DNA of 64,000 bases. Origin: Maribacter algarum (ex Lu et al. 2025) (nom. illeg.). Lineage in GTDB: Bacteria > Bacteroidota > Bacteroidia > Flavobacteriales > Flavobacteriaceae. The notes below the pieces were generated by a model that had not been told where the DNA came from, searched no databases, and saw only the letters and a list, made by a program, of their open reading frames with translations. Below are positions 52,650 through 60,419 of this stretch, piece by piece. The translations under genes and the position numbers were made by a program. The first letter of the stretch is position 1. Each line of letters starts with the position of its first letter. The stretch is from the NCBI GenBank assembly GCA_947495915.1, contig CANMAW010000004.1, positions 62,001 through 126,000 of the forward strand. The letters run 5' to 3'.

Positions 52650-52845
52650 AAATACTGCATTTGGATATTTAGCTAAAATACTATAATCATATCATTAATA
52701 CTTTTAGGTATCAAAATTTAAATTTTGTAAGAATATTTTATCTCACCCTTTACTTATTAAACGTAATTAACTACAAAAAATGACGTATTCACAACTAATT
52801 ACCAAGGTTTTACAACAATTGATTTTTATCATGTAAGAATTTTCT
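52650..52845. other. Spacer between the DUF255 gene and the candidate RNA
   Basis: AT-rich 196 bp with no coding ORF. It must contain the minus-strand promoter for the DUF255 gene, but no exact TAnnTTTG box is visible on that strand. Confidence 0.3.
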
Positions 52846-52853
52846 TATATTTG
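52846..52853 (+). promoter_or_regulatory. Candidate promoter -7 element of small RNA 1
   Basis: TATATTTG, exact TAnnTTTG match. A TTG at 52819-52821 lies 24 nt upstream and may act as the -33 box. There is no plus-strand protein gene for 1.5 kb downstream, so the transcript should be non-coding. Confidence 0.5.
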
Positions 52854-53375: not shown

Positions 53376-54281
53376 TCATGCAATCGAAATTAAGGTCTGA
53401 CTCTTATTCTTTTTAGATCTAATATTCAAACTCAATTCAGGAATAATCAACAAGGGTATTGTAGTATGAAAAGCAATCTTTTTGACAATTGACTCTCTAC
53501 GAACCCGCTCTAAATAGCCATGCTGATAATTCAGTAAGGCTAACAAGTGAATATCAAGTTCTTCTGTAAACAATTCTAAGGTTCTAGAAATAGATTGTTG
53601 AAAAGAGGTTCGACATAAATAATTCGGTACGTCTTTAAAATACTTTTTAATGATACTCAAATTAAAATTTTGAATCTCTGATAATGGTTGTTCTTTTTCA
53701 GCAACATTTACAATTCGAATGGTCGATTTAAATATTTTAGCTAGATTCAAAACTGGTGCTAATTCTGCTTGAGAATAAAATCTAAACAAATCAGTTGCAA
53801 ACGCTATTTCTAAAGGACTTTCGAAACCAAAATTTTCAGGAATTGCCATAATCGGACAAGACTTGATTGATTTTATAACATGAACAGTGGTACTACCCAT
53901 GAATATTTCTTTCAGTCCTGATGCGCCTTTAGTGCCCATAATTATCAATTCTGCATCAGTATTTTCAATGAGCTCTCGTAAGGCTACCACTAGTAATTTA
54001 GGAGAAGAGACAGGTTTAAAAAAATGCCATGGTTTACCTGAAATTTTTCTCAGGTCTGCAATAAATTTCAACAGATTGTTCTGAGATTTTACTTGGTTGG
54101 TATTAGAGGAGACTTCCAAATTCTCAAATGAATTTGAAATTCTTACTGACGTCTTTTTCATTGGAGCATAAGAATGAACAAGGTGAAAGGTACAGCGCTC
54201 ATTCTTAAAAAGTTTTAAAGCGTAAGCACATGCGTTAATTGCATTCTTAGAAAAGTCGGTTGGTAAAATTATATGCTTCAT
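53376..54281 (-). CDS. Tandem universal stress protein (UspA family)
   Basis: Cytoplasmic protein of 301 residues from the ATG at 54281; the longer frame adds 18 residues and runs across the promoter. It has two Usp domains. The first has MKHIILPTDFSKNA and the ATP-binding pattern IIMGTKGASGLKEIFMGSTT (G-x2-G-x(n)-G-S/T). The second, from about residue 150, ends in VKKIAFHTTIPLLIIPE with a degraded nucleotide loop. It is divergent from ccoI and shares with it the palindromic ATGAC-N4-GTCAT operator, so it is probably induced together with the cbb3 oxidase, most likely at low oxygen. Confidence 0.9.
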   Translation of the reverse strand: MKHIILPTDFSKNAINACAYALKLFKNERCTFHLVHSYAPMKKTSVRISNSFENLEVSSNTNQVKSQNNLLKFIADLRKISGKPWHFFKPVSSPKLLVVALRELIENTDAELIIMGTKGASGLKEIFMGSTTVHVIKSIKSCPIMAIPENFGFESPLEIAFATDLFRFYSQAELAPVLNLAKIFKSTIRIVNVAEKEQPLSEIQNFNLSIIKKYFKDVPNYLCRTSFQQSISRTLELFTEELDIHLLALLNYQHGYLERVRRESIVKKIAFHTTIPLLIIPELSLNIRSKKNKSQTLISIA

Positions 54282-54298
54282 GATAAACTCATTTAATA

Positions 54299-54306
54299 CA
54301 AACCTG
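54299..54306 (-). promoter_or_regulatory. Predicted usp -7 element
   Basis: On the minus strand CAGGTTTG, seven of eight bases of TAnnTTTG. Its last base is exactly 36.5 nt from the centre of the operator at 54329-54342, the same distance as in the ccoI and ccoS promoters. Confidence 0.55.
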
Positions 54307-54328
54307 AGCATAAAATAATCGATAAAAC

Positions 54329-54342
54329 ATGACATTCGTCAT
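54329..54342. promoter_or_regulatory. Palindromic operator ATGACATTCGTCAT shared by usp and ccoI
   Basis: Perfect palindrome ATGAC-N4-GTCAT, whose reverse complement is identical to the site before ccoS. Its form (two 5-base arms, 4-base spacer, TGAC cores) is that of CRP/FNR-family sites. It lies midway between the divergent promoters, with equal spacing to both -7 boxes, which suggests that one bound dimer activates both genes. Confidence 0.75.
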
Positions 54343-54364
54343 ATGCTATTTTTCAATTGATTAA

Positions 54365-54372
54365 CACCTTTG
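54365..54372 (+). promoter_or_regulatory. Predicted ccoI -7 element
   Basis: CACCTTTG, seven of eight bases of TAnnTTTG, 18 bases before the ATG at 54390. The mismatch is the same first-base C seen in the usp promoter, in keeping with activator dependence. Confidence 0.55.
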
Positions 54373-54389
54373 TTTAAGGTATAAAGCGA

Positions 54390-56792
54390 ATGTGTATGAA
54401 TGCAATTAACTGCTACCACTGTGGTGATGATTGTGGTAAAACGGCTATCAAAACAGATGATAAATATTTTTGTTGTAATGGTTGTAAAACTGTTTATGAG
54501 ATCTTTTCATCAAACGATTTAAACTATTATTATGATCTACAATCTGCTGCTGGTAGTTCACCAAATACCCTAAAAAATTCATACGACTTTCTAGACAACA
54601 CTGATATAATCGAAAAGCTTACCGAATTCAATGATGGTGAGTTTCAAATGGTCAATCTATATATTCCTCATATGCATTGCAGTTCTTGTATTTGGGTTTT
54701 AGAAAATTTGCAAAAACTAAATACGAACATAAATACTTCACAGGTTGATTTTCCTAAAAAAATGGTGAGAATCAATTATAAAGCAAATAAAATTTCATTG
54801 AAAGAATTGGTGTTGCTTTTAGCGCGTATCGGCTACGAACCCAATATTTCATTAGAAGATATAGAACAAAAGAAACAAACTACCAACCGCAGTCTAATTT
54901 ACAAACTAGGGGTCGCTGGTTTTGCTTTTGGCAACGTTATGTTCTTATCGTTTCCGGAGTATTTCAATGTAACTATTGCCGGATCTAATGATGGTGAATT
55001 TTGGCTGAACCAATATGAAAATACTTTTCGATGGTTAATGTTTACGTTCTCTTTACCGGTAGTATTCTATGCTGGAAAAGACTATTTCATTTCTGCATAT
55101 AAGGGATTACGAAGTGGTGTTTTAAACATTGATGTACCCATAGCTTTAGGAATATTGACCTTATTCTTAAGGAGTACTGCAGATATTATATTTGATTGGG
55201 GATCAGGCTTTTTCGACTCCCTTACCGGACTCGTTTTCTTCTTGCTTGCTGGCAAGTTTTTTCAACAGAAAACCTATTCTTTTCTATCCTTCGAGAGAGA
55301 TTATAAGTCTTATTTCCCAATAGCCGTCACCCGAATTAATTCCAACGGCAAAGAAGAAGCAATTCAAGTTTTAAATATTGCAGAAGGAGACCGCCTATTG
55401 ATTCGCAATGAAGAATTGATTCCAGTTGATAGTATTCTACGGAGTAAAAGTACTCAAGTTGATTATAGTTTTGTTACTGGTGAATCAGAAGCTGTTCATA
55501 AAACAGCTGGTGATAAATTATTCGCGGGAGGAAAACAACTTGATGGTGCCATTGAAATGGAAGCTTTAAAATCAGTATCTCAGAGCTATTTAACACAGCT
55601 TTGGAGTAATCCTGTTTTTCAAGAAAACAAACAGAGCAAATTTCAATCACTTACAGATAGTATCAGCAAGCGATTTACTATTGCAATTTTATCAATTGCT
55701 GCTATTTCCACTATTTTTTGGCTGTTTTACGACCCTAGTAAAGCGTTGAACGTATTTACCGCAGTTTTAATTATTGCTTGCCCTTGTGCAATCGCTTTAG
55801 CGTCCCCATTTACTTTAGGTAACATGTTGCGGATTTTTGGACGTAAAAAATTCTATTTAAAAGACGCACAAACAATTGAGCAATTGGCTCAGATTGACAC
55901 CGTCATTTTTGACAAAACTGGTACTATTACTACTGCAACAAAAAGTAGAGCAAGTTATGAAGGAATGCCCTTGACTATACAAGAAGAATCACTCTTAAAA
56001 AATACCTTGCGAGCTTCAAATCATCCCTTAAGTAGAACGCTTTATGATATGCTTTCAGCACATAACATTCTAACCCTTGACGAATATGAAGAATATCATG
56101 GTAAGGGTGTTATCGGAAGTTTTGGAAACGAACAGATCAAAATTGGTTCTGCAGCTTTTGTTGGTGACAAAAGCACCAATAATGCATCTCAAACTTCTGT
56201 GCATATAAGCACGAACAATCATTACAAGGGAAAATATGTTTTTGAAAATCAATACCGTGATGGTGTTTCTGAACTGTTTGAAAACATGTCTAAAACAATG
56301 CAACTAGCACTACTTTCTGGAGATAATGAAGGAGAAAAATCACGCCTTGAAGCACTACTACCAAAGTTGACGCCGCTATATTTTAATCAAAAACCAGAAG
56401 ACAAATTAAAGTTCATAAAATCTTTACAACAAAATCTTAAGAAAGTCATGATGGTCGGTGACGGTTTGAACGATGCAGGGGCTCTAGCGCAGTCCGAAGT
56501 GGGTATTGCCATTTCAGAAGATATTAATGTATTCTCCCCTGCCTGTGATGGTATTTTAGACGCTTCAAAATTCAAAAATTTATACCAATATGTTCTTGCT
56601 TCAAAAAAAGCGATGAGCATTATTAAATGGAGTTTTGCCTTATCTCTTGTATACAATAGTGTTGGGCTTTATTTCGCCGTTACTGGCAGATTAATACCCG
56701 TTATAGCTGCTATTCTAATGCCTATTAGCTCTATTAGTATTGTTGTCTTTACAACTGTAATGACCAATTACATCGGTAGAAAATTAGCCTAA
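54390..56792 (+). CDS. ccoI: Copper-translocating P-type ATPase for cbb3 oxidase assembly
   Basis: Inner-membrane P1B-type ATPase of 800 residues (CcoI/FixI), supplying copper for the CuB site of cbb3 oxidase. The N-terminus is a cysteine-rich zinc-ribbon-like segment (CYHCGDDCG, CCNGC), typical of CcoI. A heavy-metal-associated domain follows with HMHCSSCIWVLENL. It has about eight membrane helices, the metal-transport motif CPC in IIACPCAIALASP, the phosphorylation motif DKTGT, and MMVGDGLNDAGAL. It is followed at once by ccoS and the oxidase genes and has its own operator-controlled promoter. Confidence 0.95.
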   Translation: MCMNAINCYHCGDDCGKTAIKTDDKYFCCNGCKTVYEIFSSNDLNYYYDLQSAAGSSPNTLKNSYDFLDNTDIIEKLTEFNDGEFQMVNLYIPHMHCSSCIWVLENLQKLNTNINTSQVDFPKKMVRINYKANKISLKELVLLLARIGYEPNISLEDIEQKKQTTNRSLIYKLGVAGFAFGNVMFLSFPEYFNVTIAGSNDGEFWLNQYENTFRWLMFTFSLPVVFYAGKDYFISAYKGLRSGVLNIDVPIALGILTLFLRSTADIIFDWGSGFFDSLTGLVFFLLAGKFFQQKTYSFLSFERDYKSYFPIAVTRINSNGKEEAIQVLNIAEGDRLLIRNEELIPVDSILRSKSTQVDYSFVTGESEAVHKTAGDKLFAGGKQLDGAIEMEALKSVSQSYLTQLWSNPVFQENKQSKFQSLTDSISKRFTIAILSIAAISTIFWLFYDPSKALNVFTAVLIIACPCAIALASPFTLGNMLRIFGRKKFYLKDAQTIEQLAQIDTVIFDKTGTITTATKSRASYEGMPLTIQEESLLKNTLRASNHPLSRTLYDMLSAHNILTLDEYEEYHGKGVIGSFGNEQIKIGSAAFVGDKSTNNASQTSVHISTNNHYKGKYVFENQYRDGVSELFENMSKTMQLALLSGDNEGEKSRLEALLPKLTPLYFNQKPEDKLKFIKSLQQNLKKVMMVGDGLNDAGALAQSEVGIAISEDINVFSPACDGILDASKFKNLYQYVLASKKAMSIIKWSFALSLVYNSVGLYFAVTGRLIPVIAAILMPISSISIVVFTTVMTNYIGRKLA

Positions 56793-56801
56793 AAATCAAA
56801 C

Positions 56802-56815
56802 ATGACGAATGTCAT
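56802..56815. promoter_or_regulatory. Palindromic operator ATGACGAATGTCAT upstream of ccoS
   Basis: Exact reverse complement of the site at 54329-54342. Its centre is 36.5 nt from the last base of the -7 box of the ccoS promoter and its right end is 50 bases from the ATG. This is a second member of the same regulon signal. Confidence 0.75.
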
Positions 56816-56837
56816 ATTATAAAATAACCAGCAACTA

Positions 56838-56845
56838 TAGTTTTG
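56838..56845 (+). promoter_or_regulatory. Predicted -7 element of the ccoSNOQP operon
   Basis: TAGTTTTG, an exact TAnnTTTG match, 20 bases before the ccoS start. Spacing to the operator matches the other two promoters to the base. Confidence 0.6.
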
Positions 56846-56864: not shown

Positions 56865-57059
56865 ATGAGTGTTATTTATGTGTTATTGACTATCAGCATT
56901 GTCGTTGCTGTCTTTTTTTTCATAGCCTTTATTGTTTCTGTAAAAAGTGGTCAATATGATGACTCGTATACCCCTTCAGTTCGAATGTTGTTTGAAGACG
57001 AACTGGTGACCAAGCATAAATCTACTACTATGAGTTCTAAGAAAAATCCAACTAAATAA
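56865..57059 (+). CDS. ccoS: cbb3 oxidase assembly protein CcoS
   Basis: Small membrane protein of 64 residues with one N-terminal transmembrane helix (IYVLLTISIVVAVFFFIAF) and a short hydrophilic tail. The segment after the helix, SGQYDDSYTPSVRMLFED, fits the CcoS pattern (SGQFDD-type). CcoS is needed for cofactor insertion into cbb3 oxidase. It is the first gene of the structural operon and lies 9 bp before ccoNO. Confidence 0.9.
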   Translation: MSVIYVLLTISIVVAVFFFIAFIVSVKSGQYDDSYTPSVRMLFEDELVTKHKSTTMSSKKNPTK

Positions 57060-57068
57060 GATCAAATT

Positions 57069-59267
57069 ATGGAAGTTCAGCAGTTTTACTACGATAATAA
57101 AATCGTAAAAAAGTTTCTCTACGCAACAATGCTTTGGGGAATTGTAGGAATGTCGGTAGGCTTACTATTAGCCTTTATGTTTATGTTTCCGAACCTTACT
57201 GATGGTATCTCTTGGTTAAGTTTTGGTCGCTTGCGCCCGTTACATACCAATGCCGTGATTTTTGCGTTTGTAGGAAACGCCATTTTTGCCGGGGTTTACT
57301 ACTCTACCCAACGCCTACTAAAAGCGAGAATGTTTAGTGATCTACTAAGCAATTTCAACTTTTGGGGGTGGCAAGCAATTATTGTTGCTGCAGCTATAAC
57401 CTTGCCTTTAGGATACACAACTTCAAAAGAATACGCTGAATTAGAATGGCCAATTGATATTGCAATTGCTTTGGTCTGGGTAGCCTTTGGGGTTAACCTT
57501 ATTGGCACCATGTTAAAAAGAAGACAACGCCATTTATATGTGGCAATTTGGTTTTACTTGGCAACTTTTGTAACCGTGGCAGTACTTCACATTTTTAATA
57601 GTTTAGAATTGCCTGTGAGTGCTTTAAAAAGCTATTCGGTTTATGCAGGTGTTCAAGATGCGCTGGTGCAGTGGTGGTACGGACATAATGCGGTTGCCTT
57701 TTTTCTTACGACCCCTTTTCTTGGGTTAATGTATTACTTCATACCAAAGGCAGCGAATAGACCTGTATACTCTTACCGATTATCTATTGTGCATTTTTGG
57801 TCTTTAATTTTCATTTACATCTGGGCTGGCCCACATCATTTACTATACTCTTCTTTACCTGATTGGGCTCAAAATTTAGGTGTAGCATTCTCTATTATGT
57901 TGATCGCACCGTCGTGGGGTGGTATGATAAATGGCCTATTAACACTTCGCGGAGCTTGGGACAAAGTTCGAACAGACCCTGTGCTCAAATTTATGGTTGT
58001 TGCGATTACAGGTTACGGTATGGCAACTTTTGAAGGACCTATGCTATCGCTTAAAAATGTGAATGCCATTGCTCACTTTAGTGATTGGATTATTGCGCAC
58101 GTTCACGTAGGCGCCCTTGCCTGGAACGGATTCTTAACGTTTGGGATGATCTATTGGATGGTGCCTAAAATGTTTAAAACTAAACTGGCATCAACGAAAC
58201 TAGCCAACTTTCACTTCTGGATTGGAACTTTAGGAATCATTCTATATGCTTTACCAATGTATGTAGCTGGGTTTACACAAGCATTAATGTGGAAAGATTT
58301 TAACCCAGATGGAACTTTAGTTTACGGTAACTTTTTAGAAACTGTAAATGAGATCATGCCTATGTATTGGATGCGTGCCATCGGTGGAAGCATGTATATT
58401 CTAGGAGCTTGTGTAATGATATACAACGTTGTAATTACAATTAAATCTGGAAGCAAAGTAGAAGATGAATTGGCTGAAGCAGCAGCTTTGACCAGAGTAT
58501 CAAAAAGAAGAACAATTGGTGAAACTTTCCATACTTGGTTAGAAAGAAAGCCTATTCAACTAACAATTCTGGCTACAATTGCAATTCTAATTGGGGGTGT
58601 TGTCCAGATCATTCCAACAATATTGGTAAAATCAAACATACCTACAATTACCAGTGTAACTCCGTATACACCCTTAGAATTAGAAGGTCGTGACCTTTAC
58701 ATTCGTGAAGGTTGTGTGGGTTGCCACTCTCAAATGGTTCGACCGTTTAGAAGTGAAGTTGAACGCTATGGTGAATATGCTAAAGCCGGCGAGTTTGTAT
58801 ACGACCATCCATTTTTATGGGGAAGTAAACGTACCGGGCCCGATTTGCTTCGGGTAGGTGGCAAATACTCTGACAATTGGCATTTAAATCATATGTATGA
58901 TCCGCAAAGCACCTCTTCGGGTTCCATTATGCCCGCATATCAATGGTTAGTTCGTAATGAACATGACCGTTCGAACATTCAAGGTAAAATGGAGGCTATG
59001 GTTTCTCTTGGCGTACCATATACCGAATCAGATATTGCCAATGCGACCACCTCAATGAACGAGCAGGCCAAAACTATTGAAGAGAATTTATATACCGATC
59101 CTGACTTTGCTAAAAGTTATGAAGCAGACAAAAAATACGCTTCTGAAAATGGTGAAGCATTTGTTGAAATGCGCGATCGAGAAATTGTAGCACTAATCGC
59201 CTACCTACAACGATTAGGCACCGATATTAAAATCAAGGAAACTGAAGAAGTACTATCTAAAAACTAA
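57069..59267 (+). CDS. ccoNO: Fused cbb3 cytochrome c oxidase subunits I and II (CcoN-CcoO)
   Basis: Inner-membrane terminal oxidase core of 732 residues. The first part (about 1-470) is the multi-helix CcoN haem-copper subunit, with LRPLHTNAVIFAFVGNA, WWYGHNAVAFFLTTPFLG and WIIAHVHVGALAWNG holding the histidine ligands. After a linker and one further helix, the CcoO part (about 515-732) carries c-type haem motif C549-V-G-C552-H553 and the late PDLLRVGGKYSDNWH. Separate genes encode these in proteobacteria; the fusion is common in Bacteroidota. The enzyme reduces oxygen with high affinity. Confidence 0.96.
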   Translation: MEVQQFYYDNKIVKKFLYATMLWGIVGMSVGLLLAFMFMFPNLTDGISWLSFGRLRPLHTNAVIFAFVGNAIFAGVYYSTQRLLKARMFSDLLSNFNFWGWQAIIVAAAITLPLGYTTSKEYAELEWPIDIAIALVWVAFGVNLIGTMLKRRQRHLYVAIWFYLATFVTVAVLHIFNSLELPVSALKSYSVYAGVQDALVQWWYGHNAVAFFLTTPFLGLMYYFIPKAANRPVYSYRLSIVHFWSLIFIYIWAGPHHLLYSSLPDWAQNLGVAFSIMLIAPSWGGMINGLLTLRGAWDKVRTDPVLKFMVVAITGYGMATFEGPMLSLKNVNAIAHFSDWIIAHVHVGALAWNGFLTFGMIYWMVPKMFKTKLASTKLANFHFWIGTLGIILYALPMYVAGFTQALMWKDFNPDGTLVYGNFLETVNEIMPMYWMRAIGGSMYILGACVMIYNVVITIKSGSKVEDELAEAAALTRVSKRRTIGETFHTWLERKPIQLTILATIAILIGGVVQIIPTILVKSNIPTITSVTPYTPLELEGRDLYIREGCVGCHSQMVRPFRSEVERYGEYAKAGEFVYDHPFLWGSKRTGPDLLRVGGKYSDNWHLNHMYDPQSTSSGSIMPAYQWLVRNEHDRSNIQGKMEAMVSLGVPYTESDIANATTSMNEQAKTIEENLYTDPDFAKSYEADKKYASENGEAFVEMRDREIVALIAYLQRLGTDIKIKETEEVLSKN

Positions 59268-59274
59268 TTAAGTC

Positions 59275-59466
59275 ATGCTGAAATTTGTAAAAAATTATAT
59301 GGAAAGTATCGACGGGGTAGCAACGTATCCTATGATATCATTGCTCATCTTCTTTATCTTCTTTACACTCCTTTTTTGGTGGGTTTTCACAACCTCTAAA
59401 GAGCATATTAAGGAAGTAAGTGAAATTCCTTTAGAAAAAGATAACCAACAAAACATAGCAAAATGA
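59275..59466 (+). CDS. ccoQ: cbb3 oxidase subunit CcoQ/FixQ
   Basis: Protein of 63 residues with a single membrane helix (MISLLIFFIFFTLLFWWVF) and a charged tail. Position between ccoNO and ccoP, and size, identify it as CcoQ, a non-catalytic stabilising subunit. Its stop overlaps the ccoP start by 4 bases (ATGA), so the two are translationally coupled. Confidence 0.88.
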   Translation: MLKFVKNYMESIDGVATYPMISLLIFFIFFTLLFWWVFTTSKEHIKEVSEIPLEKDNQQNIAK

Positions 59467-60419
59467 AAAATTCAATTTCTTGGATGAGAGTCGTCGTACT
59501 ATTTTTTATAGTACTAGGTTTAATGGAGTTTTTCATCGACTCTGGTGATAAACCTGCAGTTATTGCCTACCCGATGACCCAATTATTTCTTGTATTAGTA
59601 CTATTACTTCTTATCGGTATAGAGCTAATTCTTCAAGCTGTAGAAAATGTGATGTTTCAGACGTTAAGTCCGGAAGCTAAAGAACGTTACCTGGCAACTA
59701 AATCAGAGTCAAAAGGTTGGAAATGGGGAAGCAAAACCTATCAAAAACTGTTAGGTTCTAAACCTATTGAAGCAGAAGAAGAAATAATTCTTGATCATAA
59801 TTATGATGGTATTCGTGAGCTTGACAACAAATTGCCGCCATGGTGGGTATACATGTTTTATGCTACTATTATTTTCGGAGTAATTTACTTGGTAAGGTTT
59901 CACATTTTAAATGACTACAATCAAGATTTAGAATACGAACAAGAAGTTGCAGCTGCCAGAATAGAAATTGAAGAATACAAAAAGAATGCTAAAGACTTAG
60001 TTGATATTAATACGGTTGAACTCTTTACCGAAACAGCAGATATAACTGCTGGCAAAACTATATTTGAATCAAACTGCGTTGCATGTCATATGGCTGATGG
60101 TGGTGGCGGAATAGGGCCAAATTTAACCGATGATTATTGGATTTTAGGCGGAGGTATCAAAAACGTGTTTAATACAATTTCTGAAGGTGGTCGTGACGGC
60201 AAAGGTATGGTAGCTTGGAAACAAATATTGAAACCCGTTGAAATGGCACAAGTTGCAAGCTATATTTTAACAGAGATTAATGGCACTACCCCGGCTAATC
60301 TGAAAGCAGCAGAAGGTGAATTGTGGTTAGACCCTGAAACAGAAGGTCAAGAGGTTATCGAACAAGCCAAAGATTCTGTAACAGTAGCATCTCCTACGGC
60401 TACAGAAACAGTTCAATAA
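59463..60419 (+). CDS. ccoP: cbb3 oxidase cytochrome c subunit CcoP, one haem motif visible
   Basis: Membrane-anchored cytochrome of 318 residues. Two hydrophobic segments precede an acidic linker; NKLPPWWVYMFYATIIFGVIYL is the anchor typical of CcoP. A cytochrome c domain contains C205-V-A-C208-H209 and IGPNLTDDYW. Only this single CxxCH is found, whereas proteobacterial CcoP has two haems. It passes electrons to the oxidase core. A hydrophilic C-terminal tail follows. Confidence 0.92.
   Translation: MKNSISWMRVVVLFFIVLGLMEFFIDSGDKPAVIAYPMTQLFLVLVLLLLIGIELILQAVENVMFQTLSPEAKERYLATKSESKGWKWGSKTYQKLLGSKPIEAEEEIILDHNYDGIRELDNKLPPWWVYMFYATIIFGVIYLVRFHILNDYNQDLEYEQEVAAARIEIEEYKKNAKDLVDINTVELFTETADITAGKTIFESNCVACHMADGGGGIGPNLTDDYWILGGGIKNVFNTISEGGRDGKGMVAWKQILKPVEMAQVASYILTEINGTTPANLKAAEGELWLDPETEGQEVIEQAKDSVTVASPTATETVQ

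Follow-up and report, generated by a model that had tools for sequence, protein, structure and literature searches.

The locus examined here raises the question of which regulator acts on the cbb3 oxidase genes of Maribacter algarum, and from which position at their promoters. The stretch analysed, called the window below, comprises 64,000 nucleotides (nt) of the forward strand of contig CANMAW010000004.1 (positions 62,001 to 126,000; assembly GCA_947495915.1) and holds the cbb3 oxidase cluster of this Flavobacteriaceae genome, with usp on the minus strand followed by ccoI, ccoS, a fused ccoNO gene and further genes. A preliminary description, made from the sequence of the window, had noted the palindrome ATGAC-N4-GTCAT at 54329-54342 and its reverse complement at 56802-56815, and these coordinates were confirmed. 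Judged by sequence comparison, the two palindromes are very probably class II (-41.5) activator sites of the Crp/Fnr family; the candidate activator is encoded just past the end of the window. The elements concerned are as follows.

54329-54342 (centre 54335.5): operator A, ATGACATTCGTCAT, common to usp (minus strand) and ccoI (plus strand), predicted at -41.5 of both
56802-56815 (centre 56808.5): operator B, ATGACGAATGTCAT, the exact reverse complement of operator A, before ccoS and predicted at its -41.5
54306-54299, minus strand: usp -7 box, CAGGTTTG, with a weak first base
54365-54372, plus strand: ccoI -7 box, CACCTTTG, first base not T
56838-56845, plus strand: ccoS -7 box, TAGTTTTG, a full match to TAnnTTTG

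The distance from the operator centre to the last base of the box was exactly 36.5 nt at usp, ccoI and ccoS alike, as had been claimed, with an operator-to-TTTG gap of 26. The palindrome occurs twice in the window against 0.01 matches expected, which is beyond chance, as none of 100 shuffles reached two. The primary sigma box TAnnTTTG of Flavobacterium psychrophilum is described as sitting at -12 to -5 (PMC9723704), and from this register, borrowed from another flavobacterium, and the 36.5-nt spacing the operator centre would therefore lie at -41.5, where the site of a class II activator is centred. Starts predicted in the same register fall at 54294 for usp, 54377 for ccoI and 56850 for ccoS. 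The class II CRP/FNR geometry of the preliminary description is supported by the comparative sequences presented below, with its position of 'near -42' corrected to -41.5; its motif is exact at both sites, but the wider operator consensus is broader, TGAYN4RTCA. An intergenic TGATTTTTATCA elsewhere in the window (52820-52853), with a TATATTTG box at the shorter spacing of 27.5, is probably due to chance.

To see how general this arrangement is, operator-box pairs were sought at gaps of 8 to 37 in 100 genomes drawn from the family, and 494 pairs were found against 75 for the reversed control. Among the 150 of the 494 pairs that were listed, the spacing was 36.5 in 93 and 37.5 in eight, with no other spacing occurring more than six times. 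We then analysed 74 ccoI loci, taken from 76 ccoI matches near the top of the list (G089 and G048 were left out, ccoI reaching a contig end). TGAYN4RTCA stands at the exact spacing with TTTG before ccoI in 66 of the 74 loci, and at 36.5 before ccoS in 63 of them when a final A is permitted in the box (50 end in G). Across the same loci (307 kb) the operator-box unit occurs only twice elsewhere on the plus strand; on the minus strand the divergent promoter accounts for seven occurrences and other places for three. The central N4 varies across genomes, with both arms and the spacing constant. It is very likely that base-exact operator spacing marks the promoters of a low-oxygen respiration regulon in Flavobacteriaceae; most of the examined members that possess these genes show it. 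In a sample of the phylum, 92 of 296 genomes had matches at a gap range of 17-27, and counts were mostly higher in this family and order than beyond. Two single cases may be mentioned: one genome of the phylum sample from outside the class (G368, family f46) is an isolated rich user of the pattern, with 21 matches against one for the control, and in G036 (C9:129399-131660) the ccoI match is interrupted by several stops while operator and box still precede it.

The whole M. algarum genome contains six exact ATGACN4GTCAT matches, three within genes and three intergenic. The third intergenic site, at C7:163309, has its TAGATTTG box at a spacing of 37.5; there (C7:163278-163322) ATGACTTTAGTCAT and TAGATTTG precede a gene for a 99-amino-acid (aa) protein that resembles, by reading, a glycogen-binding, AMPK-type domain. 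A genome-wide scan, which the preliminary description had proposed, was carried out with TGAYN4RTCA-N23-TAnnTTTG, allowing one mismatch, and gave 37 matches, nine of them exact, against six for the reversed pattern. The outcome favours the preliminary description: matches precede hemN, ccoS and other usp genes, and a crp/fnr-type gene lies in the cluster. The nine exact matches include ccoS, hemN and one usp of the cbb3 cluster. Three more lie within 4.5 kb (C2:721709-726245); the genes that they precede read as a cardiolipin synthase, a usp and one without known function, the last adjoining a patatin-like gene. Another is situated between a crp gene and, downstream, a probable cytochrome c peroxidase gene (by reading), and two further ones adjoin other crp genes. 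The usp and ccoI promoters of the window belong, with another usp, to the 28 one-mismatch matches, some of which must be chance because the reversed control also gives matches. When the gap was left free (8-38) this genome gave 30 matches against 15 for the control, eight of the 30 at 36.5 and no more than four at any other spacing, and its own genome alone is thus less striking. As a separate observation, five crp-family genes (C2:391144, C5:46240 and C10:74966 with an exact match, C5:9152 and C3:456166 with one mismatch) stand directly ahead of a class II-type site with a box spacing of 36.5, which in turn precedes the next gene; the arrangement looks as though each paralogue drives the gene beside it.

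Could these patterns be the product of chance or simple inheritance in functionless AT-rich intergenic DNA? The sequences are AT-rich, the genomes are related, and the counts thin out beyond family and order in the phylum sample. Against this stand the window expectation of 0.01 and the reversed controls, which gave 6 against 37 in this genome, 75 against 494 in the family and 3 against 224 at the fusion loci described below; moreover, the N4 centre varies between genomes and the arms and spacing stay. We regard the probability of this explanation as negligible.

The boxes themselves come in two grades. The preliminary description had pointed out that the usp and ccoI boxes share a weak first base, and in both it is C instead of T. 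Among the exact-spacing sites, the first base of the ccoI box is A, C or G in 63 of 66 and T in three, whereas that of the ccoS box is T in all 50 counted; the nominal p value for this difference, 1e-29, is no true probability since the sequences are related. At ccoI, then, the weak first base is conserved among relatives. Activation at a class II promoter requires both the site and a weak core promoter, and the ccoI base would fit such a need; the ccoS box is a full match. The difference suggests that selection acts on the degree to which each promoter relies on its activator. The further proposal that a single operator serves the divergent usp and ccoI genes is supported by comparative sequence evidence. 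Five further relatives have a second, divergent box on the other side of the ccoI operator, equally far from it. The divergent gene in those relatives is a plain Fnr (see below), which suggests Fnr autoregulation; in this genome usp occupies that position.

The two grades also bear on whether the palindrome might be a repressor site or have some other role, its spacing reflecting overlap with the -33 region. A site at -41.5 does overlap the upstream promoter element, and FNR is also able to repress (PMC3688515). However, one spacing dominates (93 of the 150 pairs listed), while FNR sites at repressed promoters are described as varying widely in position (PMC3688515). The weak first base kept at ccoI fits an activator, and the cbb3 and haem genes of F. 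psychrophilum are induced by low oxygen (PMC9723704). A repressor or other role therefore seems very unlikely.

The preliminary description had concluded that the regulator is not in the window. Comparative sequence evidence supports this. A crp/fnr-type gene lies in the same cluster past the window end, where the gene order is hemN, a kinase gene, a receiver-Crp/Fnr fusion gene and three usp genes; hemN (named by reading its translation and by a Radical_SAM match) and usp genes just past the window end also carry the operator. In profile searches of the genome, the Crp-type helix-turn-helix model matched four times and the cNMP-binding model 16 times. Two of the proteins encoded in this genome need to be compared.

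G000:C4:129668-130717 (window coordinates 67668-68717), 3.7 kb beyond the end of the window: receiver-Crp/Fnr fusion, 349 aa
C4:236154-236915: second FNR-like protein, 254 aa, with cysteines CxxC...C

The fusion consists of a receiver, a cNMP_binding domain and HTH_Crp_2, and its closest named relatives are found in Aurantibacter, Allomuricauda/Flagellimonas, Croceitalea, Maribacter and other Flavobacteriaceae. A third type of protein, the plain Fnr of roughly 225-240 aa, adjoins ccoI in 22 of 30 loci, a subset of the 74 above. Its four cysteines are invariant in all 22, and at these positions 0, 1, 0 and 0 of 30 fusions have a cysteine. Seven positions of the recognition helix were compared: A, E, I and R are identical in all 22 plain Fnr proteins and all 30 fusions, T is found in 22 of 22 and 25 of 30, the S position holds either S or T, and at the fifth position the two groups differ (A or C versus L or F). 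A protein was classed as plain Fnr at an E value of about 1e-28 or better when it belonged to neither of the other two groups, with five weaker cases (G010, G020, G031, G043 and G063) counted as lacking it, and as a fusion when the best match fell below 1e-80, a class in which the members from G001 and G025 are only 45-46% identical. By these measures the M. algarum genome has no match at the plain-Fnr level; a relative of the same genus (G050) has a plain Fnr and no match at the fusion level. A search of the open-access literature found no description of the operator or the fusion in flavobacteria, which is weak evidence of absence. We think it likely that the operator in this genome is read by the receiver-Crp/Fnr fusion.

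Alternatively, the operator might be real and class II but be read here by the second FNR-like protein. This protein has two cysteines at the CxxC positions of plain Fnr and one at the fourth invariant cysteine, and it is nearer to plain Fnr than the fusion is (up to 140 versus 112 bits). It belongs, on the other hand, to a separate orthologous group, with 57-69% identical orthologues in 14 other genomes, 11 of which also have plain Fnr, and its recognition helix departs from the shared residues at three positions (T, E and Q for A, T and S). In 15 of the 18 genomes that have the fusion only and a ccoI site, no orthologue is present (best E values 1e-15 to 1e-25), so this type cannot be the reader there and, of the three kinds of protein, the fusion is the only one left. 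We consider the second FNR-like protein an unlikely reader. The idea that it is a relocated plain Fnr was rejected, because its orthologues form a separate group co-occurring with plain Fnr in those 11 of 14 genomes. Its gene lies amid genes reading as globin, haem-sensor, ferredoxin-type reductase and sirohaem genes (C4:231000-241000), perhaps a separate nitrogen-oxide regulon.

If the fusion is the reader, its signal may come from the kinase encoded directly before it, which contains two PAS stretches, HisKA and HATPase_c. Among solved structures the first PAS best matches DosP, and FixL is among its 14 matches; both are haem oxygen sensors. In the DosP alignments shown, His66 and Arg86 of the kinase fall opposite a His and an Arg, residues with roles in binding haem and oxygen in PAS domains of this kind. 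Of 30 neighbouring kinases, 27 retain the aligned His and 22 the Arg, and the receiver Asp52 is kept in all 30 fusions. Together the PAS matches and the kept His, Arg and Asp52 therefore make oxygen control via haem likely but unproven, and that oxygen is sensed by the kinase appears reasonably probable. In F. psychrophilum, the cbb3 oxidase and enzymes of haem synthesis are reported as strongly up-regulated under oxygen limitation (PMC9723704); a search through the main text of that study gave no word that starts with Fnr or Crp.

The genes of the window that such a switch would serve are listed here.

53376-54281, minus strand: usp, universal stress protein, with start MKHIILPTDF at 54281; Pfam Usp matched on the longer open reading frame (ORF) 53376-54335
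54390-56792, plus strand: ccoI, copper-transporting ATPase with E1-E2_ATPase and a metal-binding ATPase domain
56865-57059, plus strand: ccoS (FixS), FixS match, opening the cbb3 oxidase operon
57069-60419, plus strand: fused ccoNO, ccoQ and ccoP, ORFs named from their translations

The usp start at 54281 is preferred because it resembles neighbouring Usp starts; the longer ORF (to 54335) would cross the operator. The ccoI product presumably has a role in cbb3 oxidase assembly, and ccoNO, ccoQ and ccoP would be transcribed from the ccoS promoter. From sequence, spacing, conservation, genome content, domains and residues we infer the following scheme of signal, binding and activation. Low oxygen would activate the histidine kinase, which would switch on the fusion by phosphorylation; once phosphorylated, the fusion would bind TGAYN4RTCA and make contact with RNA polymerase from -41.5, so switching on ccoI, ccoSNOQP, hemN and several usp genes.

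The link between fusion and operator extends to other genomes. The named fusion loci are the best 80 of 552 relatives, and the box was required there only to have TTT at positions 5-7. In 76 of the 80 the fusion gene is followed within 260 bp by an operator with such a box at 36.5, and one of the four misses (L216) is interrupted by a contig end. All 80 loci together have 164 units at 36.5 against none for the reversed control, and 224 against three over all spacings; the loci are not independent because many close relatives are included. This co-location is linkage of fusion and operator, not binding, and some of these genomes may also have plain Fnr.

We next compared genomes by regulator content. 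A ccoI site is present in 18 of 19 genomes with the fusion only, 31 of 33 with plain Fnr only and 17 of 21 with both, and a ccoS site in 14 of 19, 29 of 33 and 19 of 21, respectively; the single genome with neither regulator (G020) has no ccoI site and one ccoS site. The mean number of matches per genome was 4.9 with the fusion only, 5.7 with Fnr only, 8.1 with both and 0.96 with neither (control there 0.6), the genomes with neither regulator being near background except G048. By count, the fusion is present in 19 of 19 genomes lacking plain Fnr versus 21 of 54 having it (Fisher test, p about 1e-6), or in 19 of 20 when G020 is included (p about 1e-5). On a quick ccoI tree, in which 33 of 71 inner branches are poorly supported, plain Fnr changes nine times (10 with G020), so repeated loss is likely. 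The ccoI sites kept by fusion-only genomes and the recognition residues shared by the two proteins suggest that two kinds of sensor protein, one of them an unusual fusion, can read the same operator, and that the oxygen sensor was replaced under a conserved operator.

Several observations weigh against this interpretation. The association of Fnr loss with the fusion is not significant on independent pairs (kinship-corrected median p 0.125) and, having failed after this correction, co-occurrence is not used as proof. The fusion also changes more often on the ccoI tree (18 times) than Fnr does. The low counts of genomes with neither regulator are confounded by the small size of several of them. 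Among fusion-only genomes, G042 lacks a site before both ccoI and ccoS; G098 gave no match to the stricter genome-wide pattern, yet both of its sites were found in the locus analysis. A ccoS site is less frequent where the fusion is the only regulator (14 of 19) than where plain Fnr is present (48 of 54). The outermost position of the operator is occupied by C in 23 of 64 fusion-only half-sites versus 11 of 122 Fnr-only half-sites, an excess that may reflect a shift in preference or mere kinship. In M. algarum itself a cysteine-bearing FNR-like protein is present whose helix keeps E, I and R, and three of the nine exact genome matches adjoin other crp genes and may belong to those. Finally, the kinase Arg is kept in only 22 of the 30 neighbours and the His is missing in three, one of them a gap. 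Whether a haem-PAS kinase and a receiver-Fnr fusion, acting as a one-step two-component oxygen switch, repeatedly took over the regulon from Fe-S Fnr, with the operators and the -41.5 position unchanged and ccoI kept activator-only via T avoidance, is in our judgment an evenly balanced proposition.

How does this system compare with known ones? Plain flavobacterial Fnr beside ccoI shares with the fusion the operator and spacing at ccoI and the helix residues A, E, I and R, and differs from it in having four invariant cysteines and no receiver. The cysteine arrangement of E. coli FNR differs from these four, and the fusion lacks the Fe-S cysteine ligands that characterise FNR and does not, by this criterion, count as an FNR protein. 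The E. coli FNR class II promoters (TTGATnnnnATCAA at -41.5) likewise have a palindrome of the same length with a TGAY...RTCA core and serve low-oxygen respiration genes (PMC3688515); among 23 directly activated promoters with a known start, 19 have the site within 4 nt of -41.5 (PMC3688515). In contrast to the E. coli site, 259 of 264 flavobacterial half-sites begin with A or C and two begin with T, so that the core TGAY-N4-RTCA matches while the FNR palindrome TTGAT-N4-ATCAA does not; the sigma box here is TAnnTTTG, and the likely regulator lacks the cysteines.

FixJ consists of a receiver and a LuxR-type helix-turn-helix; the fusion has a Crp-type one behind its receiver and, judged by domains, is no FixJ. 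FixL has a haem PAS with a proximal His and a distal Arg in addition to its kinase domains; the kinase before the fusion resembles it by sequence, with a PAS matching DosP and FixL, His66, Arg86, HisKA and HATPase_c. In the FixL-FixJ-FixK system of Alphaproteobacteria, as would be the case here, a haem-sensing kinase and an Fnr-type protein without an Fe-S cluster control cco genes (PMC4999443), and loss of FnrN with FixK binding the existing FnrN sites has been proposed for Caulobacterales (PMC4999443). Here, however, the phylum is another and the kinase is encoded directly before the fusion, in which receiver and Crp/Fnr half are joined in one protein, leaving no transcription step from FixJ to fixK. 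By analogy, the system would resemble class II activation by FNR and, in the present genome, a FixL-FixK system minus the middle step.

If this reading holds, it would define, with a testable operator, spacing and regulator, the core low-oxygen regulon of a major bacterial family whose phylum has promoters unlike those of E. coli. It would also amount to a natural experiment, with direct sensing by Fe-S and two-component sensing by haem exchanged on one kind of DNA site. The FnrN-to-FixK replacement proposed in the Alphaproteobacteria (PMC4999443) would thereby have a counterpart in another phylum, one with a fused receiver.

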